Virus record (IMG/VR): IMGVR_UViG_3300010379_000035
Coordinates: 1-29,504 of that record
Source: a virus
Strand: one strand, 5' to 3'
DNA: 29,504 nt
Shown here piece after piece: positions 1 through 21,928 of this stretch; the first letter of the stretch is position 1; each line of letters opens with the position of its first letter. Made by a program: the position numbers and the translations under genes. The notes under the pieces are model-generated. The model was not told the DNA's origin. It did not search any database and saw only the letters and a list, made by a program, of their open reading frames with translations.

Positions 1-271
1 AGACGTAGACGGTGTCGCCGACCGATGGAACGAGACTGCTCTCCATCAGCACGGTCTGGCGTCCGATACAGGCCACGAGAACGCTCGTCCCCGGCGCTCC
101 CGCCCCGCTGATCACGACCCCGTTCACACCCTGCACGTGTGGAGCTGAGTCGGCCTGCGCTCGAACGACGTTGTTGTTCGCTCCTGGCTTGAGCCGGACG
201 ATCATCCCCGCGGTCAGACTTACGGAATCGCCGTTGAAAGTGGGAGAGACGGTGACGCTATCAGTTGCCAT
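1..271 (-). CDS. Collagen-like fibre protein, N-terminal domain (partial, runs off window edge)
   Basis: The frame opens with ATG at 271-269 and stays open to the left edge, so only the first 90 residues are visible. They match the N-terminal domain of the two full collagen-like proteins at 5206-6582 and 6594-7976. Shared blocks are NGDSV at residues 14-18, a GMIVR-type segment, VVRAQADS, a GV.GVV stretch and a GR..V segment. A collagen Gly-X-Y part presumably follows outside the window. A strong Shine-Dalgarno (AAAGGAG) lies 4 bases before the ATG. The domain probably anchors or trimerises the fibre; that role is inferred from architecture. It is the third paralogue in the window and is separated from the others by the glycosyltransferase cassette. 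Confidence 0.8.
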   Translation of the reverse strand, partial: MATDSVTVSPTFNGDSVSLTAGMIVRLKPGANNNVVRAQADSAPHVQGVNGVVISGAGAPGTSVLVACIGRQTVLMESSLVPSVGDTVYV

Positions 272-347
272 GCGACTCCTTTATCTAGACGCCCGATTTT
301 CGAGTCGCCACAGGGGTGGGCCTCCGAGGAGACCCTATGTAGCCGGT

Positions 348-376
348 ATGATCGCGGACTAGCGCGAATGTGTCAA
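348..376 (-). promoter_or_regulatory. Possible promoter for the partial collagen-like gene
   Basis: On the minus strand a perfect TTGACA (371-376) is followed after 17 bases by GATCAT (348-353), which matches 4 of 6 positions of the sigma-70 -10 hexamer. Transcription would start near 341, leaving a leader of about 70 bases before the ATG at 271, and that ATG has a strong Shine-Dalgarno. The -10 is weak, so this is tentative. Confidence 0.35.
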
Positions 377-381
377 ACCGG

Positions 382-1692
382 CTACCAGGGGCGGACCAGC
401 AGACGCTCGTAGGCGGGCAGCGCACGAAATCGGTTGTCTTCGGCGCGCTCCAGCGCTCGCGCGCGGTCGTCCTGGGTCGCCCACCACGACGCCGCGAAGT
501 TGTAGACGCACACCACTTTGTCGATAGCTGCGTAGCGCTCGCCGGCCATCTCCAAGAGGGGGTACATCACTGCGTGGTCGATGGCGAGATCACACCACGA
601 GCCGTCAGGCTTCAAGAGATCTGCCGACTTGATCTTCTTCACGAGCCCAGCGCGGAACGTCTTGAGGTGCGTGGCGCGCCAGTCGATCTGGCGGACGTTC
701 GCGCCGGCCGGGTAGCGCGAGGCGAAGCCGATCGTGCCGTCCGGCATCATGAACTGCCCGTAGGTAAGCCACACGTCCGGATCGGTGTAGGTCTCGGCGA
801 GCACCTCCAGAGCGCGGTTGTGCGCGAGCCAGTCATCCCCGTCGAGCCACACCACGATCTCGTCGTCGGGCAGGTCGTTCCACGTCTCGACTGCGTTCTG
901 GAGCGCAGGCTGTCGAACGTCGTTCTGCGCGAGCCGCGTGCGCGTGTCCTGGTTCGCCATCTTCGTGTTCATCCACGTGTTGTCGTCGCTCTTCGCGTCG
1001 ATGAAGATGTGGGTCCAGTCTATGAACGTCTGTCGATGCACACTCTCGATGCACCGCTTGACCCACTTCTCGGCGTTCAGCGCCGTCGAGACGACCGTCA
1101 TGTGCAGCTTCGGCTTCGGCACGAGCACGAAGAAGTTTTGCCGTCCGAGCACGTGCTGCGCGTTGGTCGACAGCATCAGATCGCGGAGCTTGATCGTCTT
1201 CGTCTGCGCCGGAACCCATCCGTGAGCTGCGAACTTCTCCAGCCAGTAGGCAGGCGGCTGGAGATTCACGTGGCCCTCCCACAGTTGTCCCGGCGCCGCG
1301 GCGGACCAGACGATGAAGTTGCGTGCGAAGTTGACGACGTTGGACACGATCGTGTCAGCATGCTCCTGCGGAATGTGCTCGGCGGTCTCCGTACAGATCG
1401 CGGTGTCGTAACGGGTGGTGATGAGCCCCGGCGCGTCGGGCATCGCGAGATTGAACACAGCCACCTCTACGCCTGGCTCTCGCATCTCGATCGCGGCCGG
1501 CGCGTCGTCAGCGCCTACTATCCCCCAGCCTAGCTCCTTCAAGCGCGCTGTCACCAACCCGATTCCACATCCGATATCAACAGCGCTCCCCTGAACGCCC
1601 ACCACCTCGTGGATGCAATCGGCGAGACGTCGATACGGCTCGCGGCACGTGCGCATGAATTCGAAGAAGGCTTGGTCGTGAGGGTTTTCCAT
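382..1692 (-). CDS. Class I SAM methyltransferase fused to family 2 glycosyltransferase
   Basis: This is a two-domain enzyme of 436 residues. The N-terminal half (about 1-193) is a class I SAM-dependent methyltransferase: motif I DIGCGIG at 39-45, an acidic GADD at 60-63, and TETAEHIP near 101-108, the usual Methyltransf_11/23 pattern. The C-terminal part (about 198-420) is a GT-A fold family 2 glycosyltransferase that opens with MTVVSTALNAEKWV and carries the metal/nucleotide-sugar site WLDGDDW at 283-289. It probably transfers a sugar from an NDP-sugar and methylates a sugar or acceptor. The ATG at 1692 was chosen; an in-frame TTG at 1728 adds 12 residues and is possible because a TAGCAT -10-like element sits 5 bases before it. 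The gene is divergent from the triple-fusion gene and lies in the collagen-fibre cassette, so fibre or virion glycosylation is the likely job (inference). Confidence 0.85.
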   Translation of the reverse strand: MENPHDQAFFEFMRTCREPYRRLADCIHEVVGVQGSAVDIGCGIGLVTARLKELGWGIVGADDAPAAIEMREPGVEVAVFNLAMPDAPGLITTRYDTAICTETAEHIPQEHADTIVSNVVNFARNFIVWSAAAPGQLWEGHVNLQPPAYWLEKFAAHGWVPAQTKTIKLRDLMLSTNAQHVLGRQNFFVLVPKPKLHMTVVSTALNAEKWVKRCIESVHRQTFIDWTHIFIDAKSDDNTWMNTKMANQDTRTRLAQNDVRQPALQNAVETWNDLPDDEIVVWLDGDDWLAHNRALEVLAETYTDPDVWLTYGQFMMPDGTIGFASRYPAGANVRQIDWRATHLKTFRAGLVKKIKSADLLKPDGSWCDLAIDHAVMYPLLEMAGERYAAIDKVVCVYNFAASWWATQDDRARALERAEDNRFRALPAYERLLVRPW

Positions 1693-1731
1693 CGTGTGAT
1701 GATCCGGGTTGCCTGCTCCCGAAGTCAAGCC

Positions 1732-1764
1732 TTATGCTAGGTTCCCAACTCGTGCTAGGTTCCC
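1732..1764. promoter_or_regulatory. Divergent start region with an 18-base tandem repeat unit
   Basis: TGCTAGGTTCCC occurs at 1735-1746 and again at 1753-1764, an 18-base period. Each copy holds a plus-strand TAGGTT; the second (1756-1761) ends 6 bases before the ATG at 1768, the spacing seen for other -10 elements here. The minus strand of the first copy reads TAGCAT (1734-1739), a -10-like element facing the methyltransferase-GT2 gene. The -35 partners are poor. It may be a duplicated overlapping divergent promoter, or simply a small tandem duplication. Confidence 0.4.
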
Positions 1765-1767
1765 GGC

Positions 1768-3744
1768 ATGCTCTATTTCTACACGGCGGTATACGGCGAC
1801 CACATCCCGCTAATGGAATTCGACACGAAGGGCTTCGAGTTCCGGTGCTACACCGACCGGAAGATCGAGTCGAGGACGTGGAAGATCGAGCAGCGCGCAC
1901 CTGTACCGGGCGGTCCGCGGATGGCCGCGAAGTGGTGGAAGATGTTCCCGCCGGAGGTCGCGAGCGGTGACATCTCGATCTGGATCGACGCCTCTATCAC
2001 CGTCACCGATGTCCACGAGATGGTGCGCGTCTGCAAAGCGGCGCTCAAGGGTCACGACGTCGCGTTCTTCAAGCACCCCGAGCGCACCAACATCTTCGAC
2101 GAGGCCGTCGCGTCGCTTCAGATGCCCAACAAGTACGACGGACTCCCGCTGATCGCACAGGTCGAAGCGTATCGTGAGGAAGGGCTGCCACACGATTCGG
2201 GGCTGTGGGCTGGCGGCGTGATCGCTAGGAAGCACAGCCTGAAGCGTGTCAATTTCGAGAACGACTGGTGGGCGGAGAACGAAAAGTGGTCGTACCAGGA
2301 CCAGCTCAGTCTCCCCTACGTGCTGTGGAAGCACGATGTGAAGCCTGGCGTGATCCCCGGTAGCGTCTACAAGACCGCCTTCCACACGTGGACGCCGACT
2401 CCTGATCCAGTGAAACCCGTGGCTCCCGCACCAGCATCTCCTATGCTCGTGAACCAGCTGGTCTCGATCATCACGCCGACGCACAACACGAAGTGGCTGG
2501 CAGACTGCTGGGCGTCGCTCCGGAGCCAGACGTACACGAACTTCGAGTGGCTCGTCTCAGTGAACGACAAGAGCGGGAAGCGGCAACAGGTGCAGCGAGT
2601 CGCAGATGAGGTCAAGGCGATTGTCGGCGACGACCCGCGCGTGAGGATTCTCCACGACTTCGCGCCATTCTCCCACGTAGGACAGCGCAAGGCGTTCGCG
2701 TTTGGGAGTGCTGCGGGTGAGATCGCTGTCGAGTACGACCACGACGACCTGCTGACCCCCGATGCGCTCGCCGAGATCGTAAAGGCGTTCTCCGATCCCA
2801 CCGTCGGCTTCGTCTACTCTGACTTCGCCGACTTCCATGACGGTGCGGTCGATCCGAAGGGCAGGCCGATCCAGGGCAACCTTACCTATCGACATCCCGA
2901 GGTCCGTCCCGGCTGGATTACGGGCGGCTTCAAGTTCTACGACGCCAACGTGCTCTCGTGCATCCGTCCTGGCAAGTACGAGTGTGTGCATTCGCCCGAG
3001 CCCACGGCGCGTCTGGTCTCGCACATCTACACGGCGCCGAATCATGTGCGCGCATGGCGGCGCAGCGTCTATGAAGCGGTCGGTGGCCACGACCCGAGCT
3101 TTCCGATCGCGGACGACCACGAGCTGATCTGCCGCACGTACTTGGCGACGAAGTTCCACCACATCGAGAAGCCGCTCTACCTCTATCGGATCACAGGTGA
3201 GAACACGTGGGCGAAGAACGTCAGTTCGATCAAGGAGACGAGCGACCGCATCCAGAATGACTACCTGGAGCGCTTGGTGCTGCGCGAGTGCGAGCTGCTC
3301 GGCGTGCCGGCGATCGAGCTGGGAGGCGGCATCGACCCGCGTGCGGGCTGGACCGCGGTCGACCTCGAAGGTGCGCCGATCAGCGCAGACCTGCGACAGC
3401 GCTGGCCATTCGAAGATGGATCGGTGGGAGCGTTCCGCGCGAGCGATCTCCTCGAACACCTGCCCGACAAGATGCACACGATGCGCGAGATTCACCGGTG
3501 TTTGCGGGCGGGCGGATGGTTGATTTCGATGACGCCCAGCTCGGAGGGATGGGGTGCTGATGCCGATCCGACCCACGTGAGCCGCTGGAACCCGATGAGC
3601 TTTTGGTACTACACACGGGATGCCTCGGCGCGGTACATTCGCAACACCACGATGCGCTTCGCCGAAGTCCACCTCGATACCGTTCCGATCAACATCCAGG
3701 GCGTCACGGTCCCCTACGTGCGCGCGGATCTGGTGAAGCTGTGA
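1768..3744 (+). CDS. Triple-domain protein: DUF616/TOD1-like transferase, GT2 glycosyltransferase, SAM methyltransferase
   Basis: A 658-residue protein with three apparent enzyme domains. Residues 1-210 resemble the DUF616/TOD1 glycosyltransferase-like family: an opening YTAVYGDH strand, KWWKMFPPE at 55-63, the acidic WIDASITV at 72-79 and a DSGLWAGG block at 143-150. A Pro/Ala linker (211-229) leads to a family 2 glycosyltransferase at about 231-475, with LVSIITPTHN at the start, the metal site YDHDDLL at 323-329 and ADDHEL at 448-453. Residues 510-658 form a class I methyltransferase with a degenerate glycine motif ELGGG at 517-521, DLLEHLPD at 560-567 and EIHRCLRAGGWL at 574-585, typical of Methyltransf_11. 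It heads a plus-strand pair with the oxygenase-like gene (GTGA overlap). It likely builds and methylates a glycan on virion fibres; the acceptor is unknown. Confidence 0.85.
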   Translation: MLYFYTAVYGDHIPLMEFDTKGFEFRCYTDRKIESRTWKIEQRAPVPGGPRMAAKWWKMFPPEVASGDISIWIDASITVTDVHEMVRVCKAALKGHDVAFFKHPERTNIFDEAVASLQMPNKYDGLPLIAQVEAYREEGLPHDSGLWAGGVIARKHSLKRVNFENDWWAENEKWSYQDQLSLPYVLWKHDVKPGVIPGSVYKTAFHTWTPTPDPVKPVAPAPASPMLVNQLVSIITPTHNTKWLADCWASLRSQTYTNFEWLVSVNDKSGKRQQVQRVADEVKAIVGDDPRVRILHDFAPFSHVGQRKAFAFGSAAGEIAVEYDHDDLLTPDALAEIVKAFSDPTVGFVYSDFADFHDGAVDPKGRPIQGNLTYRHPEVRPGWITGGFKFYDANVLSCIRPGKYECVHSPEPTARLVSHIYTAPNHVRAWRRSVYEAVGGHDPSFPIADDHELICRTYLATKFHHIEKPLYLYRITGENTWAKNVSSIKETSDRIQNDYLERLVLRECELLGVPAIELGGGIDPRAGWTAVDLEGAPISADLRQRWPFEDGSVGAFRASDLLEHLPDKMHTMREIHRCLRAGGWLISMTPSSEGWGADADPTHVSRWNPMSFWYYTRDASARYIRNTTMRFAEVHLDTVPINIQGVTVPYVRADLVKL

Positions 3745-4313
3745 GCGAGTTCGTTCCCGCGCAGCCCGAGATCGTGATCGTCGACGACTTCTTACATCGT
3801 CCCGCCGAGATGCGCGCACTGGCGCTCGCGCAGTCGTACGAGAAGATGGGCTCGGCTGGCAAGCGGTCGATCGAGACGTTCCGGCACCTGCTAGATTTCC
3901 GCGTGTTCGAGCAACTGCTGAACCGCAAGCTCGCGAAGCCGTGGGACCACTACCCCATCAACGGTCGTTTCCAGTTCTGCACGGCCGAGGACCCGCTCGT
4001 GTACCATGCCGACGAGCAGTCTCACGCTGGCATCATCTTCCTCACGCCCGATGCGCCGTTCGAGTCGGGCCTTTCCCTCGTTCGCAGCCGCGTGACCGGC
4101 GCGCGCGAGTCGACCAAGGACGGCAACTCCGGTGCGACCTACGGCAACAATCTGCTCGACGGCACGAAGTGGGAGACGGTCGACAAGATCGGCAACATCT
4201 ACAACCGGCTCGTGCTGTGGAACGGTCGTCTCAATCACGCGCCGAGCTGCTACTTCGGCACAGAGCTGTCGAACGCGCGTCTGTTCTGGATGTTTTTCTT
4301 CGACGCGGCATAG
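3741..4313 (+). CDS. 2-oxoglutarate/Fe(II) oxygenase-like protein (DUF6445-like)
   Basis: The GTG start at 3741 overlaps the stop of the preceding gene (GTGA), giving 190 residues. The sequence fits the double-stranded beta-helix oxygenase layout: a YHADEQ segment supplying the HxD iron ligands (H89, D91), a distal His in LNHAP (H166), and an Arg about 14 residues later in [10 protein letters not shown] (R180) that could bind 2-oxoglutarate. The opening IVIVDDFLHRPAEMRALAL resembles DUF6445 and prolyl-hydroxylase-like phage proteins. Reaction and substrate are unknown. Because it lies between glycosyltransferases and collagen-like fibre genes, hydroxylation of the fibre or its glycan is an attractive inference. 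Its 3' end overlaps the convergent GT4 gene by 64 bases. Confidence 0.75.
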   Translation: MSEFVPAQPEIVIVDDFLHRPAEMRALALAQSYEKMGSAGKRSIETFRHLLDFRVFEQLLNRKLAKPWDHYPINGRFQFCTAEDPLVYHADEQSHAGIIFLTPDAPFESGLSLVRSRVTGARESTKDGNSGATYGNNLLDGTKWETVDKIGNIYNRLVLWNGRLNHAPSCYFGTELSNARLFWMFFFDAA

Positions 4314-5209
4314 GGCAGCGCGCGCATCTGCACCAGCGCCTTTCGCCAGCGCGGGACCGACGCCTCGATCGAGAACTTCTGCTGCGTCAGGGATTGGCAG
4401 CGCACGCGATCGATCTCACCAGCGCGCCCGATCGCCGCGACCATCTCGTCTACCGAAGCGCAGCGAAATCCCGTGGCACCGTCATCGACCGTCTCGACGA
4501 AGCCCCCATAGTTGCTCGTCACGACAGGCGTCCCACAGAGCATCGCCTCGATCGCGCTCCCGCACAGGGACTCAACGAACTCGGTCGGACACAGGTGCAC
4601 GGCTGCGTCGCCGAGAAATGGAGCCCGCTCTGTTCCGAGCAGTGGGCCGACGAATTCTACATTGGGAGGCGGCGGCTCGTTTCTGACCCACAGACCGTTC
4701 ACAGCATCCGTGCTCGCGATCTTGAACGACATACCAGGCAACTTTTTCGCCACCTCGATCAGCGCGCGTATCCCCTTCTCGGGCATCAGCCGTCCCAGGA
4801 ACGACACGTACTTTCCGCCGCCGCTGCCGAGCGGCCACGCGTTGCAGTCGAAGGCCCAAGGGATGACCCACGAGTTGCGTCGTCGATCGAGCGGCTCGTT
4901 GTACTTCGCGAAGCAGTAGTGCCGCCAGATCTCCGTTTCGTACACACGAAGCGCCCCCCACGGCTTGGCGTCGTATGCAACACCGCACTCGATCTCGGTG
5001 ACGGTCGCCCCTTCGACCAGTGGAGCGTACCCAGGCTCCGGAGGGTAGGTGTAGAAGATCAAGTCTCCCTCGATCAAACCCCACGCCTCGACTCCGTGCG
5101 TGCTGTACGGCTCACCGAGGATATCAAGCACGCGCAGTAGATTCGCGGTGCGCTGTACGAACGGGCACGCGCGGGATCGATACGCCGGAGGAAGGACGAT
5201 GTGAATCAC
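4250..5209 (-). CDS. GT4-type (group 1, GT-B fold) glycosyltransferase
   Basis: A 319-residue retaining glycosyltransferase of the GT-B fold. The C-terminal nucleotide-sugar domain shows [11 protein letters not shown] at 137-147, VEFVGPL at 184-190 and the family's E-x7-E signature from E213 to E221, followed by [16 protein letters not shown]. The N-terminal acceptor domain is short (about 120 residues) and begins [13 protein letters not shown]. The ATG at 5209 overlaps the stop of the upstream collagen-like gene (ATGA), so the two are translated together, which suggests the fibre is its acceptor (inference). The last 64 bases overlap the convergent oxygenase-like gene. A decayed copy of its 3' end lies at 10854-11027. 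Confidence 0.9.
4316..4480. repeat. Dispersed 165-base duplication, copy A (inside GT4 gene)
   Basis: This stretch aligns without gaps to 10863-11027, in the same orientation. By eye I count about 24 mismatches in 165 bases, roughly 85% identity, including one identical run of 30 bases (4352-4381 against 10899-10928). Copy A is the living 3' end of the glycosyltransferase gene; copy B is a remnant. Confidence 0.9.
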
Positions 5210-6582
5210 GGCGTCAGATAGAGCGTCGCAGTGAAGTCAGTGGAGAACGTGGAACTGAACAGTCCGTTCACGTCGATGCGCAGTCCGACAGTCTGGCCCG
5301 CGGTGACGGCCTGAGCGACGGTGCCTGACGAGGTGATTCCGGTGGTGTTAACGCCCGCTAGGGTGACACCCGTGGCGACGCCGTTGATCGTCAGCGTGAT
5401 CGAAAAGCTCTGAACCGATCCTGAGATCGGCGTGAAGTCCAGCACGTTGACCACAAGCAACGCTTGCGTGATGTTGACCGGGACGCGCCACTCCCACAGG
5501 GTGCTGTCGGCGGGACCGTCGCCAGTGTAGCTGTCGGTATCTGCTGTTAGAAGCGCCCAAAACTCGCCACCGTGGGTCAGAACGTTGTTGCCTGGAGACA
5601 TCCCTCCACCGAAGGAGGTGAGCAGCATGAAGAAGTCGCCGATGGGCCCTTGGAAGCCCTGCACGCCCTGTGCGCCCGTCGAGCCCTGCGTACCTGTCGA
5701 GCCTTTTGCGCCCTGCGCTCCGCGCGCGCCCTGGAACCCGGTAGGAGACGCGCCCGTCACACCCTGCGATCCCTGCGGGCCGCTCAAGCCTTGCGCGCCT
5801 GTTGCTCCTGACGACCCGGCGCCCGTCGCACCCTGGAACCCACCGCTGCCGGTCGCGCCTTGCGATCCCTGCGTCCCCTGTGCGCCACCGGTCGATCCTT
5901 GCGTGCCTGTCGATCCCTGAGCACCCTGTGGACCACCAGTCGAGCCCTGTGCACCCTGCGAGCCAGCTCCTCCTGCCGACCCTTGCACGCCCTGCGCGCC
6001 GCTCGCTCCCTGTGCACCCTGTGAGCCGGCTCCTCCCGCAGCACCCTGCGCCCCGGTCGCCCCCGAGGTCCCAGAAGCACCCGATGCGCCTTGCACACCG
6101 GCGCCGGTGTCTCCGCTCGCGCCGGCTGCGCCGCTTGCACCGCCTGCGCCCTGTGCCCCTTGAACACCGCTACTTCCCGTGCTCACGTCGTTCACCGCGA
6201 TCGTAGCGGCCGCGAGCCCAAGGCGCGCGTATGTGCTGACATCTACAAGCGTGCCGAGCGAGACGCTGATCGCAGGCGCGATGTTTGTTGCGCGCCCCGG
6301 TGTGACGCTCGATAGGTAGAGCAGTTGCCCTGTGGTGGGAGTCAGCCCACTCACGAGCGCGACCGGCCTTCTCCCGTCTGTCTGCACGAGGACAGGCCCG
6401 CTGGGCGCCACGCTGCCATCAACAACTACACCAAGAACGCCAGCAGCATGTGGCGAGCTGTCCGCTTGCGCGCGAACGACCGTATTCGGCGTGCTGGTTA
6501 CCTGACGAACAATCATCCCGCGCGTCAGCGGGACGGAGTCTCCGTTGTACAGCGGAGGGATTATGGTTCCGTCGCCTGCCAC
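5206..6582 (-). CDS. Collagen-like fibre protein
   Basis: A 458-residue protein in three parts. Residues 1-138 are a globular N-terminal domain shared with the genes at 1-271 and 6594-7976. About 139-315 is a Gly-X-Y collagen-like region built from triplets such as [12 protein letters not shown] and GPQ, with several short interruptions. It is rich in Gln, Ser and Thr and poor in Pro and Lys. About 316-458 is a beta-rich C-terminal domain, with a [13 protein letters not shown] opening, LWEWRVPVN and a TAGQTVGLR strand near the end, also shared with the paralogue. Such proteins usually form trimeric phage fibres or spikes. The many Ser/Thr in the triplets are plausible O-glycosylation sites, and the stop overlaps the start of a GT4 glycosyltransferase. 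The paralogous gene ends 11 bases upstream, so they form one operon. Confidence 0.9.
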
Positions 6583-6593
6583 AGACGCACCGA

Positions 6594-7976
6594 CTAGGTG
6601 AGCTTCAGGTCAGCCGTGAAATTGACAGTTGCCGTGGCGTTGAGGCTTCCCGCGAACGTCACCTTCAGTCCGACCGTCTGCCCGGCGGTGACAGCCTGTG
6701 AGACTACGCCAGTCGTGGAGATTCCGGTTCCGTTCAGGCCGCCGAGACCGACAGTCAGCGAATTGGTGCCGTTGATCGTCATGGCGACAGAAAAGTTCTG
6801 CGCCGATCCAGACCCAGGAGTGAACGTGACGACGTTGATGCTGAGATCAGCGTGCGTCGTGTTGATCGGGACGTACCACTCCCACACCAGGGTATCGCCA
6901 GTAACACCGCCGCCATTCAGGTTGTTGTTGTTGGTCGTCTCTAGCATCCAGAACGACGCGCCCGCGGTGAGCACGTTAGATCCTCCCGTTATGCCGCCGC
7001 CGTACGAGAAGTTCATCTCGACGAAGTTGGAGCCTATGGCCCCCTGGAATCCCTGCGTGCCTGTCGAGCCCTGCGTGCCTGTCGTGCCCTGAGCACCCGT
7101 CAATCCTTGTGCGCCAGCCGATCCCTGCGCCCCTTGAGCCCCAGTCGCACCAGTCGCTCCCGCTGTCCCCTGAAAGCCTTGTGCTCCGGTGGCGCCCTGC
7201 GCGCCTTGTGACCCAGCGCCAGTCGCGCCCTGCGATCCCTGCGCACCAGTCGATCCCTGCGCACCAGTCGCGCCTTGCGCACCGCCGCCGGCTCCCGTCG
7301 CACCCTGTGATCCCTGCGGCCCCTGCGACCCGAGCGTGGAGCCTTGAGCGCCTTGCGCCCCTTGCGCGCCCGCGCCGCCCTGAGCGCCGCTGGTTCCCGC
7401 TGCGCCCTGAGCGCCCTGCGTTCCGGCGCCAGATCCGCCCTGCAATCCAGTGTTCCCCTGCGCGCCCTGCGGACCTTGTGCTCCTTGCGGACCGGTGCCC
7501 GTCGCCCCTTGCGCCCCCTGCGCACCCTGAGATCCTTGAGCCCCCGTCGCCCCCTGCGCACCGGGAATCCCGACGCTGGAGAAGTCGACGTTGATGGCAG
7601 CGATGACCGTTCCGAGGCGCGCGTAGTTCGTGGTGTCGAGGATCGTTCCGATCGCCACGCCGATCGTGGGCTGCACCGTAGTTGCGACACCAGGAGTCGC
7701 CGCCGACAGGAACACGATCTGACCATTCGTGGGCGAGAGGCCGCTCGCGAGCTGCAGCGGCCGCCGTCCCGATGTCTGGACGACCACAGGGCCTGTGGGC
7801 GACACGCTGCCGTCGATCACGACACCAAGAACACCCGTGGCATGCGGCGTCGTGTCGGCTTGTGCGCGTACGACAGTATTCGAGCTACCGACGACCTGTC
7901 GGACGACCATCCCCTGCGTGAGCGAGACGCTGTCGCCGTTGTAGAGCGGAGGGACTATCGTGCCGTCGAGCGCCAT
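6594..7976 (-). CDS. Collagen-like fibre protein, paralogue
   Basis: A 460-residue protein with the same three parts as its downstream neighbour: N-terminal domain about 1-135, Gly-X-Y region about 136-315, beta-rich C-terminal domain about 316-460. The outer domains align along their length ([35 protein letters not shown]), while the collagen part differs in triplet order as expected for slippage and recombination. It is the first gene of a leftward operon (7976 to 4250) and has a TAGGCT element 9 bases before its ATG and no good Shine-Dalgarno, which suggests a leaderless message. It is likely a virion fibre or adhesin that acts outside the particle, probably as a homo- or heterotrimer with the paralogue (inference). 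Confidence 0.9.
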
Positions 7977-10000: not shown

Positions 10001-10007
10001 CAGGGGT

Positions 10008-10433
10008 ATGAAGATCCTTCGCGGCCTCGCATCCCTCATCGCCACGCTCATCGCCATCGTCGGCATCGGTGAGGCGACCACGGTCCTGCACATCGGGCCC
10101 AGCCTCGTCGCCTTCATCCTGGCGGCCGGCGGCGTGCTCGGCGTGCTCGGCATCTCGCCGCTCAGCCTGAGCCAGTCGACGGCGAACCTGCTCTCGAAGC
10201 TGTCGATCTTCGTCACTGGTGGCCTGGGCACCTTCGCCACCTACAGCGCGGGGCATCCGCTCTGGGCACCCGATCACATGGTCCTGGTGAAGATCATCCA
10301 CGCCATCGGCATCGTCGGCACGTTCATGGCCATCGCCGGCTCGACGCCGACGCTCGCTGTGCCGCCCGCGCCGCCGGCTCCTCCTGCACCCGCTCCCCTT
10401 GCACCAGCGCCCGAGCCGCCCAAGGCCGCGTGA
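10008..10433 (+). CDS. Multi-pass membrane protein with Pro/Ala-rich tail
   Basis: 141 residues from the ATG at 10008. Hydrophobic segments at about 5-22, 30-50, 64-80 and 92-111 predict three or four membrane helices with little polar loop. Residues 113-141 are a Pro/Ala tail (PPAPPAPAPLAPAPEPP). Size and topology would suit a holin or a virion membrane protein, but no family signature is visible, so no function is assigned. It overlaps the next gene by GTGA. Confidence 0.75.
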   Translation: MKILRGLASLIATLIAIVGIGEATTVLHIGPSLVAFILAAGGVLGVLGISPLSLSQSTANLLSKLSIFVTGGLGTFATYSAGHPLWAPDHMVLVKIIHAIGIVGTFMAIAGSTPTLAVPPAPPAPPAPAPLAPAPEPPKAA

Positions 10434-10681
10434 GGATCGTCGACGCACGCAGCGGCAAGGTCGTGCAGATCGGCAAGCCGGTCAAGAATGGCCCGGATCC
10501 CGACGACTGGTACACCATCTTGCGAGTCAACTACCGCACGCTTCTTTCGCGCACGGCGACCGTGGTTCGGCACGATGGTCGCCGCGAAGAGGTCGCGTGT
10601 CCGGTGAAAGTGCTGCCACGGCTGATGTATGGGCCGCGTTTCCCGATCGCCGACGCTGCTGCGATCATTTACCCCTCATGA
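10430..10681 (+). CDS. Small unknown protein
   Basis: 83 residues from GTG at 10430, overlapping the previous stop. The sequence looks like a compact beta protein (KVVQIGKPVK, DDWYTILRVNYRTLLSRTATVV, EEVACPVKV) with a C-terminal hydrophobic IADAAAIIYP. No membrane helix, no recognised family. Both neighbours have membrane helices and both junctions overlap (GTGA and ATGA), so the three are probably made together. Confidence 0.7.
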   Translation: MRIVDARSGKVVQIGKPVKNGPDPDDWYTILRVNYRTLLSRTATVVRHDGRREEVACPVKVLPRLMYGPRFPIADAAAIIYPS

Positions 10682-10857
10682 CGCTGTTTTCGCCGCTCAC
10701 GCGCTCACGCATCCGCCTCGCGATCTTCGCCGCAGGGCTCATCCCGCTCGCGATCTTGGCGCGGATGGCCAGCAACGGGAAGCTACAGGAGCTGGTGCAG
10801 CGGCTCGGCGCGAAGGCATGGAAGGCGCACGAGAACGTCAAGATGCGGGAGCCTTAG
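10678..10857 (+). CDS. Small single-pass membrane protein
   Basis: 59 residues from the ATG at 10678 (ATGA overlap with the previous stop). One hydrophobic helix lies at about 13-29 (RLAIFAAGLIPLAILAR), followed by an amphipathic basic helix (KLQELVQRLGAKAWKAHENVK). It is the end of the plus-strand block, and its stop overlaps the stop of the leftward glycosyltransferase remnant. A holin, antiholin or virion membrane peptide is possible but unproven. Confidence 0.65.
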   Translation: MTLFSPLTRSRIRLAIFAAGLIPLAILARMASNGKLQELVQRLGAKAWKAHENVKMREP

Positions 10858-19600: not shown

Positions 19601-19842
19601 CACGTACCTCCTTCGAGCAGTTTCACGACGATGTTCACGGGGCGCAAGGCCCGATTTCGATCGAAGCGTTCGGGGAAGCGCGGCTTGTCGTCCGAGGGCA
19701 GAGGAACCGTGTCCTGCACGCCGACGTGCGAGTAGCCGCTCTCTTCGAGGTGCATCTTGATGAGGTTGGCGAGGGTCGTACGCCCCGAGTCGTGCGGTCC
19801 TTCGATCGTGACCGTCACAGCGGGGAAGGTGGGGCGGCTCAT
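19600..19842 (-). CDS. Minimal P-loop protein
   Basis: 80 residues from the ATG at 19842 (ATGA overlap with the ThyX gene). AVTVTIEGPHDSGRTTLANLI is a strand plus Walker A loop of the type seen in nucleotide kinases (GxxxxGKT/S), but the invariant Lys is Arg here. After SHVGVQDTV and a Pro-rich stretch it ends with RALRPVNIVVKLLEGG; no Walker B or lid region exists. It may be a truncated kinase or a small regulatory NTP-binding protein. It lies just downstream of the dTTP genes. Confidence 0.65.
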   Translation of the reverse strand: MSRPTFPAVTVTIEGPHDSGRTTLANLIKMHLEESGYSHVGVQDTVPLPSDDKPRFPERFDRNRALRPVNIVVKLLEGGT

Positions 19843-20738
19843 GGGAGCACCGCGCCGATGTTCTCGTTGGGCAGGGTCTTCCTGTACTGTTTCCAGCCAA
19901 TGAAGTTGCCGCTGCGCTCGGGCGTCGCGAGCGCCTGCGCTACGTGTTCGGCTGGCGAGGCGTGGAGTGGCTGCTGGACAACAAGCCGGTCGTGCAGCTC
20001 GATGTCCTTTTCGATCTCACGCTTGCCCTCGTGTGTGAGGTAGGAGACGCGAGCGCACCGGCCGACAGAGATCTTCTTCATCAGCTCGATCCCGTACGCA
20101 GCCGCGCGCTCTGTATCATTCGGTTCCTTCTCCATCGCGAGCAGGAGAATCGCCGCTTCATCCTCTCCGCCGCCCGCGGTTCGCGTCGATCCGTAAAGCG
20201 GTGTGTGCCACCCTCCGAGCGGCATCTCTTCCGGTGTCGAGGCCGCCATCGCGTCCCGTGCCATGTACGCGAGCTTCTGGAAGTGGGGCTCGGCCGCCGG
20301 ATGGCACCGCAGCCCCCAGACGTTCTCCCACTCGGTCGCGGAGACGATGATCGTGATCCACATCCACGGCTCGATGATGCGGTTGACGACCTGCTTGTGG
20401 ACGCCGAGCTTGAGGAGGCGCCGCGCGTTCTCCACAGCGCTGTCGCGACCATCGAACCAGATACTCTGCGCGAGCACCTTCTGATCCTCACTCAGCTCGT
20501 CCCCCGCCTGCATCCCGCTCTTGTTCGCGCCGATGTACTCGGGAACGAACGGGTCGTCGAGCACCATCTGGATCAGCTTCTCCGTCGGGATCGCGCGGCT
20601 GCTCGCCGAGTTCTTCGAGAGCATCCTGTGCGTCATGATCTCGCTATGGATGCTGCGCGGATACTTCCACTCCATCGTCGTGAGCCGCTTCCCGCATGGC
20701 GCGAGAGAGTCAGCCAGAACCTTAACTGATATCGCCAT
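19839..20738 (-). CDS. thyX: Flavin-dependent thymidylate synthase (ThyX family)
   Basis: 299 residues from the ATG at 20738, which has a strong AAGGAGG; it overlaps the end of the previous gene by 17 bases. ThyX makes dTMP from dUMP with methylene-tetrahydrofolate, FAD and NADPH. The family block is present as THRMLSKNSASSR at about 36-48, where the usual RHRxxSxNExSxR has Thr for the first Arg and Ser for the Glu. Further family marks are VGRCARVSY, HASPAEHVAQA and GNFIGWKQYRK. Length is normal for longer phage versions. A DUF4406-like protein and dTMP kinase lie upstream in the same string, a dTTP supply unit. Confidence 0.9.
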   Translation of the reverse strand: MAISVKVLADSLAPCGKRLTTMEWKYPRSIHSEIMTHRMLSKNSASSRAIPTEKLIQMVLDDPFVPEYIGANKSGMQAGDELSEDQKVLAQSIWFDGRDSAVENARRLLKLGVHKQVVNRIIEPWMWITIIVSATEWENVWGLRCHPAAEPHFQKLAYMARDAMAASTPEEMPLGGWHTPLYGSTRTAGGGEDEAAILLLAMEKEPNDTERAAAYGIELMKKISVGRCARVSYLTHEGKREIEKDIELHDRLVVQQPLHASPAEHVAQALATPERSGNFIGWKQYRKTLPNENIGAVLP

Positions 20739-20901
20739 CGTCGCTTTCCTCCTTATCGAGTTCAACTTCCGCAGATCCGTACACCCATACTCGCAACGGA
20801 TCGAAGTGCAGCTTCATCTCGCGCACAGCGCCATGTACCTCGGCCCTGTCATGCGCCTCTTCCGGCGTCGGCGCAGCGAAGTGGATGAAGTAGCGGGTCA
20901 C
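20722..20901 (-). CDS. Small acidic protein, unknown
   Basis: 59 residues from GTG at 20901 (GTGA overlap). TRYFIHFAAPTPEEAHDRAE, LHFDPLRVWVYGSAEVEL and an acidic tail (DKEESDDGD). Its stop lies inside the ribosome-binding region and first codons of the ThyX gene, so the two are coupled. No family recognised; it sits between nucleotide metabolism genes. Confidence 0.6.
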   Translation of the reverse strand: MTRYFIHFAAPTPEEAHDRAEVHGAVREMKLHFDPLRVWVYGSAEVELDKEESDDGDIS

Positions 20902-21260
20902 GGCAGCGCCAGCCGTTCGATATCGAACGTCAGCAACCAGACCTTCAGTTGCTCGACGCGGTGGAACACCGGCAGCTCCAACCTCTCCGCCTCCCTCAGT
21001 TCTGCCGTCACGCCCTTCGATCCCTCCCAACCCGGCACGAGCACCACGGCGTCGCAGCGCCGCATCAGCTCCAGCGTGCCGTCGTACCAGAACTCGTCGC
21101 GGAGCGTCCCAAAGAAATTGGCTGTGTTCGCGAGCGGATTGAGCGGCATCGCGCCTGCCTCGGCCACAGCGAAGGCGAGCGTCTCCGCAGCACGAACGTT
21201 CCGCGCACGCTGCCATTGGTCGGGTGCGGAGAAACGCCCCGCCACGTAGACGACCTTCAC
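20898..21260 (-). CDS. DUF4406-like, nucleoside 2-deoxyribosyltransferase-related protein
   Basis: 120 residues from GTG at 21260 (GTGA overlap). The fold marks of the deoxyribosyltransferase-like superfamily are present: VVYVAGRFS at the start, a helix RNVRAAETLAFAVAEAG, AMPLNPLANT, then DAVVLVPGWEGSKGVTAE with the conserved G-W-x-S-G-type turn. DUF4406 proteins are common in phages; a role in breaking down or exchanging (deoxy)nucleosides is inferred from the superfamily and from the flanking ThyX and dTMP kinase genes. Confidence 0.75.
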   Translation of the reverse strand: MKVVYVAGRFSAPDQWQRARNVRAAETLAFAVAEAGAMPLNPLANTANFFGTLRDEFWYDGTLELMRRCDAVVLVPGWEGSKGVTAELREAERLELPVFHRVEQLKVWLLTFDIERLALP

Positions 21261-21928
21261 GCCTCCAACCCCAACGCGCGCAGCACGTGCTTCCAGATTC
21301 GCTCCGTCACCTCGTCGATCGTTCCGACGCCATCGACCACGACCCACTGCTCGGCATCGTCTTCAGCGTTCACCTCCCACAGCGTCTTGTAGTTCTGGCG
21401 GATCGCGCGCTGCTTCTCGCGGTCCTTCTCGTATCGGTCGCGCATCTGCGGGCGTCGACGGAGCGCCTCCTCTTCGGGCACGTCGATGAAGACGTTCAGT
21501 GCGGGCTGCGGCAGTATCTCCTGTACTTGCTGTAGCCAGACCGGATCGAGCCCGTCGGCTTCGCCAAAACAGATCGCGCTCGGCGTCCACCGATCACAGA
21601 TGACGACCCGCCCCGCGAAGATGTGTGCCTCGATGTCATGCGCGGCGTGCATCTTATCGGCCAATTGGAGCGCCTGGAAGACGAGAGGATCTTCGGGGGC
21701 GCGCCAGACCGGACAAGGCTTCTCGTGCACACGATTGAAATCCTCTGGAATCGCAGCCAACATCGTCTCGCCCAGCAGGTGCCGCCGAATCGCCTTCCCT
21801 ACCGGCGTCTCGTAGCGCGGGAACGACATCACCACAGCGACGCGGCCGATCGAGTCGAATTTCTCGACCAGACACTTCGATTGGGTCTGCTTGCCGATTG
21901 CGTCGCAGCCGTCCAGGCACATCAACAC
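21257..21928 (-). CDS. tmk: Thymidylate (dTMP) kinase
   Basis: 223 residues from GTG at 21928, with AGGAGG 8 bases before it (an ATG two codons later is an alternative). The enzyme phosphorylates dTMP to dTDP with ATP. The P-loop reads DGCDAIGKQT at 6-15; the DR(Y/W) motif is CDRWTPSA at about 111-118; NVFIDVPEEEALRRR is the strand before the lid, and the lid is Arg/Lys-rich (RPQMRDRYEKDREKQR). SFPRYETPVGK matches the substrate-binding FPR segment of dTMP kinases. Part of the dTTP unit with ThyX. Confidence 0.9.
   Translation of the reverse strand: MLMCLDGCDAIGKQTQSKCLVEKFDSIGRVAVVMSFPRYETPVGKAIRRHLLGETMLAAIPEDFNRVHEKPCPVWRAPEDPLVFQALQLADKMHAAHDIEAHIFAGRVVICDRWTPSAICFGEADGLDPVWLQQVQEILPQPALNVFIDVPEEEALRRRPQMRDRYEKDREKQRAIRQNYKTLWEVNAEDDAEQWVVVDGVGTIDEVTERIWKHVLRALGLEA

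Follow-up and report, generated by a model that had tools for sequence, protein, structure and literature searches.

A viral gene cassette for collagen-like fibres and their possible glycosylation and O-methylation

Related systems in other viruses and bacteria

Virion glycosylation is already known in a few phages and in giant viruses, and the modification of viral collagen in mimivirus. In PBCV-1, A064R (with A061L) combines two glycosyltransferase (GT) domains and a methyltransferase (MT) in one chain of ~640 aa and extends and O-methylates the virion glycan (PMC9614988). One product of the locus described here likewise joins a methyltransferase to two GT domains in a single chain; the A064R glycan, however, is N-linked on the capsid of a virus with a eukaryotic host, whereas here a collagen-like fibre is the putative acceptor. 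Sequence homology to A064R, of which only the first domain is structurally solved, was absent among the PDB matches of profile A2 at E 0.01. Mimivirus encodes collagen-like proteins and the lysyl hydroxylase-glucosyltransferase L230 (PMC9614988), and so shares with our virus the encoding of collagen-like proteins, a 2-oxoglutarate (2OG) oxygenase and a glycosyltransferase, but L230 acts on Lys, which the fibres studied here nearly lack, and the GT families differ.

Among phages, cluster O mycobacteriophages have GT genes adjoining an O-methyltransferase gene, and the relevant passage of PMC11600133, citing Freeman et al. 2023, reports that the products modify capsid and tail tube; it names these targets rather than a collagen-like acceptor and makes no mention of a 2OG oxygenase. 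Because GT and O-methyltransferase genes with products reported on virion proteins are, on that passage's account, already described, the suggestion in a preliminary description of our locus that methylation of the glycan would be new does not stand. The tail-fibre locus of Synechococcus phage DSL-LC02, a T4-like cyanophage unrelated to our virus, has collagen-like genes on both sides of a GT, an MT and a 2OG oxygenase 38% identical to ours, in the same divergent layout and the same sandwich; it differs in that the GT annotated there is without a Pfam match and its MT is an FkbM domain fused to radical SAM, and function is putative there too. Bacterial collagen-like proteins of the BclA type are glycosylated GXY proteins, and a prolyl hydroxylase may be present in the same organisms (PMC8968730). 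They resemble our proteins in combining GXY repeats with glycosylation, which is putative here, but are cellular spore proteins served by different enzymes, and a methyltransferase fusion is not described in PMC8968730.

Gene content of the cassette

The locus, from an uncultured virus, lies in IMG/VR virus record IMGVR_UViG_3300010379_000035, of which positions 1 to 29,504 (29,504 nucleotides, hereafter the window) were analysed. Its genes are listed in Table 1, and for six proteins the gene content originally proposed was confirmed by Pfam, fold and motif evidence, including the two glycosyltransferase-methyltransferase fusions, recognised from their Pfam domains.

Table 1. Cassette genes in the window
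Feature	Coordinates	Strand	Length (aa)	Evidence or remark
Third fibre protein, N-terminal head	2..271	-	90	Cut by window edge; Gly-X-Y none visible in-window
Methyltransferase-GT2 fusion	382..1692	-	436	Pfam Glycos_transf_2 PF00535 3.6e-13; Methyltransf_12/23/11 at 1e-4 to 2e-6
TOD1/MUCI70-type GT - GT2 - methyltransferase, trifunctional	1768..3744	+	658	PF04765 1.6e-10; PF00535 4e-12; Methyltransf_11 PF08241 4e-7
Predicted Fe(II)/2-oxoglutarate oxygenase	3741..4313	+	190	AlphaFold model; Foldseek PDB; HxD/H/R motif
GT4-type glycosyltransferase	4250..5209	-	319	Pfam PF13692 5e-17
Collagen-like fibre protein: head, Gly-X-Y shaft, C-terminal domain	5206..6582	-	458	Pfam Collagen PF01391 1.4e-16
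Collagen-like fibre protein, paralogue	6594..7976	-	460	Pfam Collagen PF01391 1.4e-18

Three collagen-like paralogues had been proposed. Two are complete and match Pfam Collagen, while only the head of the third lies in the window, so that its assignment as collagen-like rests on a relative in genome G001 (65105-66640; 63% identity over 68 residues) which bears a GXY region; the head is also 50% identical to that of the 460-aa paralogue, a head conserved across the virus family. The gene for this paralogue lies 11 nt upstream of the second complete collagen-like gene, and the start codon of the GT4 gene is placed inside the stop of the latter, an overlap that had been described and that measures 4 nt when read directly from the sequence. 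On the other strand, the last 4 nt of the GT-GT2-MT gene (3741-3744) are, by ORF coordinates, also the first 4 of the oxygenase gene. The Pfam domains of this trifunctional protein span residues 68-190, 233-355 and about 538-586, and the protein is 81% identical in G001, which also has a copy of the MT-GT2 fusion (77% identical); the G025 orthologue of the trifunctional gene adjoins a collagen gene.

The Gly-X-Y triplets were described at the outset as rich in Ser/Thr and poor in Pro/Lys, and this holds: the X/Y residues of the GXY runs in the window are 28% Ser+Thr, 1.6% Pro and 0.5% Lys. The 458-aa protein has a GXY shaft with relatives in the PHROG tail and tail fibre families, matches that are driven by the repeat. 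Each fibre protein would have a conserved N-terminal head, probably the particle anchor, a triple-helical shaft rich in Gly-Ala-Gln/Thr/Ser and a variable tip; for head and tip there were no useful PDB relatives. The fibre proteins are predicted to be displayed on the virion.

The oxygenase

The AlphaFold model of the oxygenase (pLDDT 93.6, pTM 0.89) has a double-stranded beta-helix fold, and Fe(II)/2OG oxygenases occur throughout the top of its Foldseek list against the PDB, with likeness to PHD2, OGFOD1 and HygX. The HxD...H iron triad and the downstream Arg for 2OG (H89, D91, H166 and R180) are invariant in 85 of 85 sequences. Judged by model and motif, the product is a Fe(II)/2OG-fold oxygenase, as had been suspected. 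Pfam gave only weak hits (DUF6445) and PHROG a match to phrog_1644, and because fold and motif point elsewhere, the PHROG label 'minor coat protein' was rejected as a misannotation. Several phages have the 2OG domain in fusion with GT2 or GT17.

The initial parallel with the hydroxylation of collagen, by contrast, was not upheld. Animal- or mimivirus-style hydroxylation was rejected as the main reading because the repeats, with almost no Pro or Lys at X/Y positions, would offer it almost no substrate, and known collagen prolyl or lysyl hydroxylases (P4H and the L230 structure) were not matched by the oxygenase profile among PDB chains. Rather than a prolyl or lysyl collagen hydroxylase, the enzyme would most likely be one that oxidises a sugar or a side chain other than Pro/Lys in the pathway that would decorate the fibres.

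Collagen and transferase genes in related viruses

The preliminary description proposed a search for the same gene set in related genomes, and in seven relatives of the virus (89-121 kb) the placing of collagen beside GT and MT genes proved to be kept across the family while the identity of the GT changes. Pfam Collagen is present in all seven; with the window included, five of eight viruses have the oxygenase gene. In 7/7 genomes a GT, MT or 2OG gene, defined by Pfam or profile, lies no more than 5 kb from a collagen gene (mean 3.5 under random rotation, P = 0.003), and 10 of 17 collagen genes have such an enzyme gene within 2.5 kb (rotation mean 4.2, P = 0.006), the seven genomes being kin and not independent. 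Five of the eight viruses have a collagen gene directly followed by a GT gene (gap -4 to +34 nt), the transferase family varying by virus: GT4 in the window (-4 nt), a GT with an EDD motif in G001 and G030 (-4 nt), GT4-type enzymes at two junctions in G026 (0 and +13 nt) and GT4 in G027 (+34 nt). The EDD-motif GT had no useful PDB relatives. In G025, two collagen genes enclose a GT2 and a methyltransferase.

Terminase, capsid and portal genes were not recognised in the family, and none of its structural proteins was identified with confidence. A conserved 262-aa capsid-like protein, whose AlphaFold model reached a pLDDT of 30, was encoded in 0 GTDB genomes when a host or provirus link was sought.

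Distant homologues

The pair of GT2-MT and oxygenase genes is common in environmental phages, and among the 66 non-redundant loci where both are present, the two genes abut (gap <=16 nt) in 52. Of 99 module loci, 27 contain collagen runs, as against none with a GXY run of at least 10 triplets among 45 viral loci taken at random (419 kb), an imperfect control since its contigs, drawn with a random 15-mer after a helicase-gene control had given only 3 loci, were shorter than the module contigs. Within distant contigs the proximity of module and collagen was not significant (Fisher P = 0.08) and is not counted as support, and 39 of 44 phage collagen loci are without the module. A module specific to collagen phages was rejected, the pair being common in environmental phages and collagen runs present in only those 27 of its loci, and exclusivity to collagen fails in that most distant phages with the pair have no collagen nearby. 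Transferases without a collagen-like gene, which had been named as evidence against the fibre as acceptor, were found in none of the seven relatives, but no collagen match was obtained in S-SSM4 or in three IMG/VR contigs (G007, G011 and G018), these three being possibly fragments. The distant pairs without collagen weaken a collagen-only role but leave the claim intact for this virus family.

Proposed function and alternatives

The best explanation, and in our judgement a probable one, is that the cassette encodes collagen-like virion fibres together with enzymes that would glycosylate and O-methylate them. We infer that the fibre is the acceptor, and likewise the order of the steps and the identity of the sugars. 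The translationally coupled GT4 would be the best candidate for placing the first sugar on shaft Ser/Thr, after which the GT-GT2-MT and MT-GT2 fusions, likened to PBCV-1 A064R, would extend the chain and O-methylate its sugars. Glycosylation is assumed to be cytoplasmic and to precede assembly, no export route being seen.

That the GTs, MTs and oxygenase instead modify a surface glycan of the host (O-antigen or similar), blocking superinfection or changing the receptor, with the fibre genes adjoining through common selection, seems unlikely. O-antigens are the best-known setting of Wbp-type sugars, so the donor pathway described below for two relatives fits such a role, as do the PHROG tags of moron or O-antigen conversion on related phage GTs, the distant homologues in large cyanophage glycan clusters with UDP-galactopyranose mutase or with nucleotide-sugar epimerases, and the papers on freshwater and marine phages in which GTs of this kind are assigned to LPS or DNA. 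It is hard, however, to account in this way for the start/stop overlaps and the short gaps that separate collagen genes from GTs of swapped families, and of the gtr conversion module (GtrA, GtrB and serotype-specific Gtr) the cassette showed only one GT2 with a distant GtrB-like PHROG match (4e-4), the GtrA flippase gene of conversion operons not being recognised among its genes.

Glycosylation and methylation of another virion protein, e.g. the capsid, with the fibre genes nearby merely as part of a general late structural region, we regard as quite improbable. Capsid and tail tube are the targets of the mycobacteriophage GTs, according to the relevant passage of PMC11600133, the glycan that A064R modifies belongs to the major capsid protein (PMC9614988), and distant modules exist with no collagen nearby; against this, the 262-aa capsid-like gene lies ~40 kb (G001) or ~49 kb (G025) from the GT-GT2-MT gene, whereas collagen genes adjoin the GTs. 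Hypermodification of DNA, in which the oxygenase would hydroxylate a base that the GTs then glycosylate, is highly implausible, even though 2OG oxygenases and GTs are a known DNA-modification pairing in phages. The oxygenase has folds like those of PHD2, OGFOD1 and HygX, and its only Pfam and PHROG matches were DUF6445 and phrog_1644, with no match to a TET/JBP or AlkB family; in PDB profile searches the MT domain fell in a class of sugar and small-molecule enzymes (D-glucose O-methyltransferase) and the GT2 domain resembled polysaccharide and glycoprotein GTs.

Extending the fibre-modification reading to the whole family is more tentative. These viruses may have collagen fibres bearing O-methylated glycans made by their own GTs, some with their own diacetamido-uronic acid donor, the coupled GT being swapped to change the coat of the fibre; this we hold to be possible, with somewhat more doubt than conviction. 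If true, viruses of prokaryotes would have an equivalent of the modified collagens known from giant viruses. The family couples collagen fibre genes to interchangeable GT and MT genes, some members apparently also making a sugar donor, and offers a clear test system for whether prokaryotic viruses sugar-coat their fibres, what such a coat does and on what substrate the GT-fused phage 2OG oxygenases act. As to the donor, a complete sugar-nucleotide pathway like that of WbpA/B/E/D is encoded by two relatives, G025 and G027, in which, to judge by homology, UDP-diacetamido-glucuronic acid may serve as the donor; the closest PDB matches of the viral genes are WbpB (2e-78), WbpE (5e-42) and a WlbB/WbpD-type enzyme (5e-46), together with a nucleotide-sugar dehydrogenase.

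Genes of the cassette

The window spans an entire IMG/VR record, 29,504 bases long and itself a fragment, and carries in its first 8 kb the cassette that the preliminary description had read there, and its two complete collagen-like genes, two fusions and GT4 gene are upheld by Pfam. The third proposed collagen-like paralogue shows only its head domain here and is probably collagen-like, as judged from its G001 relative. The shafts are rich in Ala and Gln and, as proposed, their Gly–X–Y (GXY) triplets are rich in Ser/Thr and poor in Pro/Lys (X/Y residues: Ser+Thr 28%, Pro 1.6%, Lys 0.5%). The GT4 gene, which starts with GTG, does overlap the collagen stop, by 4 nt, and from ORF coordinates the oxygenase gene overlaps the GT–GT2–MT stop by 4 nt.

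Features of the window (GT, glycosyltransferase; MT, methyltransferase)
Feature	Position	Strand	Basis or remark
Third 'collagen'	2-271		head domain only within window; GXY region present in G001 relative
MT–GT2 fusion	382-1692	minus	Pfam
TOD1/MUCI70 GT–GT2–MT fusion	1768-3744	plus	Pfam
GT4-type enzyme	4250-5209	minus	Pfam
Collagen-like protein, complete	5206-6582	minus	Pfam
Collagen-like protein, complete	6594-7976	minus	Pfam
ThyX-type thymidylate synthase, deoxyribosyltransferase-like protein, thymidylate kinase cluster	19839-21928		

The oxygenase

Sequence searches matched the window oxygenase only to DUF6445 and a PHROG named 'minor coat protein'. Its AlphaFold model (47 relatives aligned; pLDDT 93.6, pTM 0.89) matched Fe(II)/2-oxoglutarate (2OG) oxygenases in the PDB, as the preliminary description had suggested; protein hydroxylases (PHD2, OGFOD1) are among them as well as small-molecule oxygenases (HygX, AsqJ), so the matches settle the fold but would fit either kind of substrate. 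Residues H89, D91, H166 and R180 are invariant (85/85 sequences). In several phages (L087, L101, L185, L213, L223) the 2OG domain is fused at the C-terminal end of GT2 or GT17 proteins, which points to a role in glycan chemistry. The closest viral models came from Virus NIOZ-UU157 and from a giant virus, Satyrvirus, whose GT2-like protein (34% identity, TM 0.85) includes the same 2OG domain.

Collagen neighbourhoods in related viruses

Most window genes recur in the same order, at about 47–87% identity, in G001, a 121.5-kb contig which belongs with G025–G030 to a family of seven genomes (89–121 kb) identified by a 262-aa protein 70–86% identical to the G001 copy. This protein (mean column identity about 83% across the family, e.g. 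L387–L393 at 10001–10789) has no relative in phage or GTDB collections. A search with one terminase family, and a comparison of 36 G025 proteins with PHROG, turned up no terminase, portal or capsid gene; a HerA/DUF87-type ATPase with a weak terminase-like PHROG match is present, and these viruses may lack a tail or have diverged very far.

Pfam Collagen occurs in 7/7 related genomes, and the search for the same gene set proposed at the outset placed a GT, MT or 2OG hit ≤5 kb from collagen in 7/7 (random-rotation mean 3.5, P = 0.003) and ≤2.5 kb from 10/17 collagen genes (mean 4.2, P = 0.006), with P = 0.06 for the collagen gene count at 1 kb, all P values being optimistic because the genomes are related. 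The rotations excluded the window and tried three sizes (1, 2.5 and 5 kb). To avoid picking families for sitting by collagens, GT2, GT4 and Methyltransf_11 were located by Pfam in all genomes, and 2OG by a profile.

Gene order around collagens in the relatives
Genome	Order
G001	two collagen genes, MT–GT2, GT–GT2–MT, 2OG, Methyltransf_24 gene, EDD-motif GT, third collagen
G025	2OG and GT–GT2–MT adjoin 2191-aa collagen protein
G025, separate locus	collagen, 315-aa gene, GT2, MT, collagen
G026	collagen, GT4-type GT, 217-aa gene, collagen, GT4
G027	collagen, collagen, GT4
G028	GT2–MT about 0.5 kb after collagen; 2OG farther along
G029	GT2–MT and 2OG close to collagen gene truncated at record end
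G030	two collagen genes, with a GT2/MT pair at a distance of about 3 kb
G030, separate locus	EDD-motif GT and weakly MT24-like gene following third collagen

Direct collagen-to-GT junctions (-4 nt in the window, G001 and G030; 0 and +13 nt in G026; +34 nt in G027) involve at least two GT families. The unnamed EDD-motif GT-like family (L006:13149–13823, L412:11661–12350; invariant EDD, conserved HVG), whose genes in G001 and G030 are coupled to those for collagens, has no match in Pfam or PDB. In G001 a collagen-like gene is followed, 11 nt downstream, by a GDSL/SGNH hydrolase gene (L006:47–793), which possibly encodes a glycan or host-surface esterase.

The gene pair in wider phage populations

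Environmental phages commonly carry GT2–MT and 2OG genes, with identities of about 40%, and in 52/66 non-redundant loci holding both the two lie within 16 nt of each other. Collagen runs occur in 27/99 loci with this module, mostly upstream and on the same strand, against 0/45 random loci, and Pfam Collagen is found somewhere in 20/23 module-bearing records searched whole. Nevertheless collagen is not a fixed partner of the module, since the distance between the two inside a contig is not significant (P = 0.08), only 5/44 phage collagen loci hold the module, and transferases lacking any collagen gene, which the preliminary description had named as counter-evidence, do occur among distant carriers (S-SSM4 and three IMG/VR records, with no collagen match); in this virus family the module is placed beside collagen. 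An independent case of collagen-like genes with GT, MT and 2OG is cyanophage DSL-LC02, where three such proteins surround a GT, an FkbM-MT/radical-SAM protein and a 2OG. A cyanophage-like glycan cluster near a psbA-like gene (L104:6458–11792) holds UDP-galactopyranose mutase, GT2, two 2OG genes and GT2–MT.

Sugar supply and proposed acceptor

Homologues of WbpA, WbpB, WbpE and WbpD are all encoded in G025 and G027, with B, E and D in G001, A and B in G026 and none in G028–G030. The best PDB matches were to WbpB (2e-78), WbpE (5e-42) and an LPS-biosynthesis acetyltransferase (5e-46), which we take to be WlbB. This virus-encoded, Wbp-like route to a diacetamido-uronic acid sugar nucleotide lies at 84358–85593, 55456–56355 and 100502–102234 in G025, and is also seen in G027 and G001. 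WbpA, B, E and D produce UDP-GlcNAc3NAcA (PMC10622841). In G025 and G027 this may be the donor used. Such a sugar is typical of O-antigens, so the pathway also speaks for the rival reading, in which the enzymes modify a host surface glycan, O-antigen or similar, instead of the virion fibre.

Adjacency of transferase and collagen genes is conserved in the family, and on balance we lean towards modification of the collagen-like fibre in the cytoplasm, ahead of assembly. GT4 would prime Ser/Thr of the fibre, the GT–GT2–MT and MT–GT2 fusions would then extend the glycan and O-methylate it, and the oxygenase would oxidise a sugar or another side chain, the product presumably being displayed on the virion.

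Comparison with known systems

No report of phage collagen-like proteins linked to their own GTs was found in the literature searched. Mimivirus L230 and its collagens resemble the cassette, although both the Lys/Pro substrate and a sequence link are absent here. PBCV-1 A064R, a GT–GT–methyltransferase building the viral capsid glycan (PMC9614988), works in the mode proposed for the window GT–GT2–MT, but homology between them is not detectable. Methylation, which had been put forward as new for a phage, has a precedent in mycobacteriophages, where GTs neighbouring an O-methyltransferase are reported to act on virions (PMC11600133).
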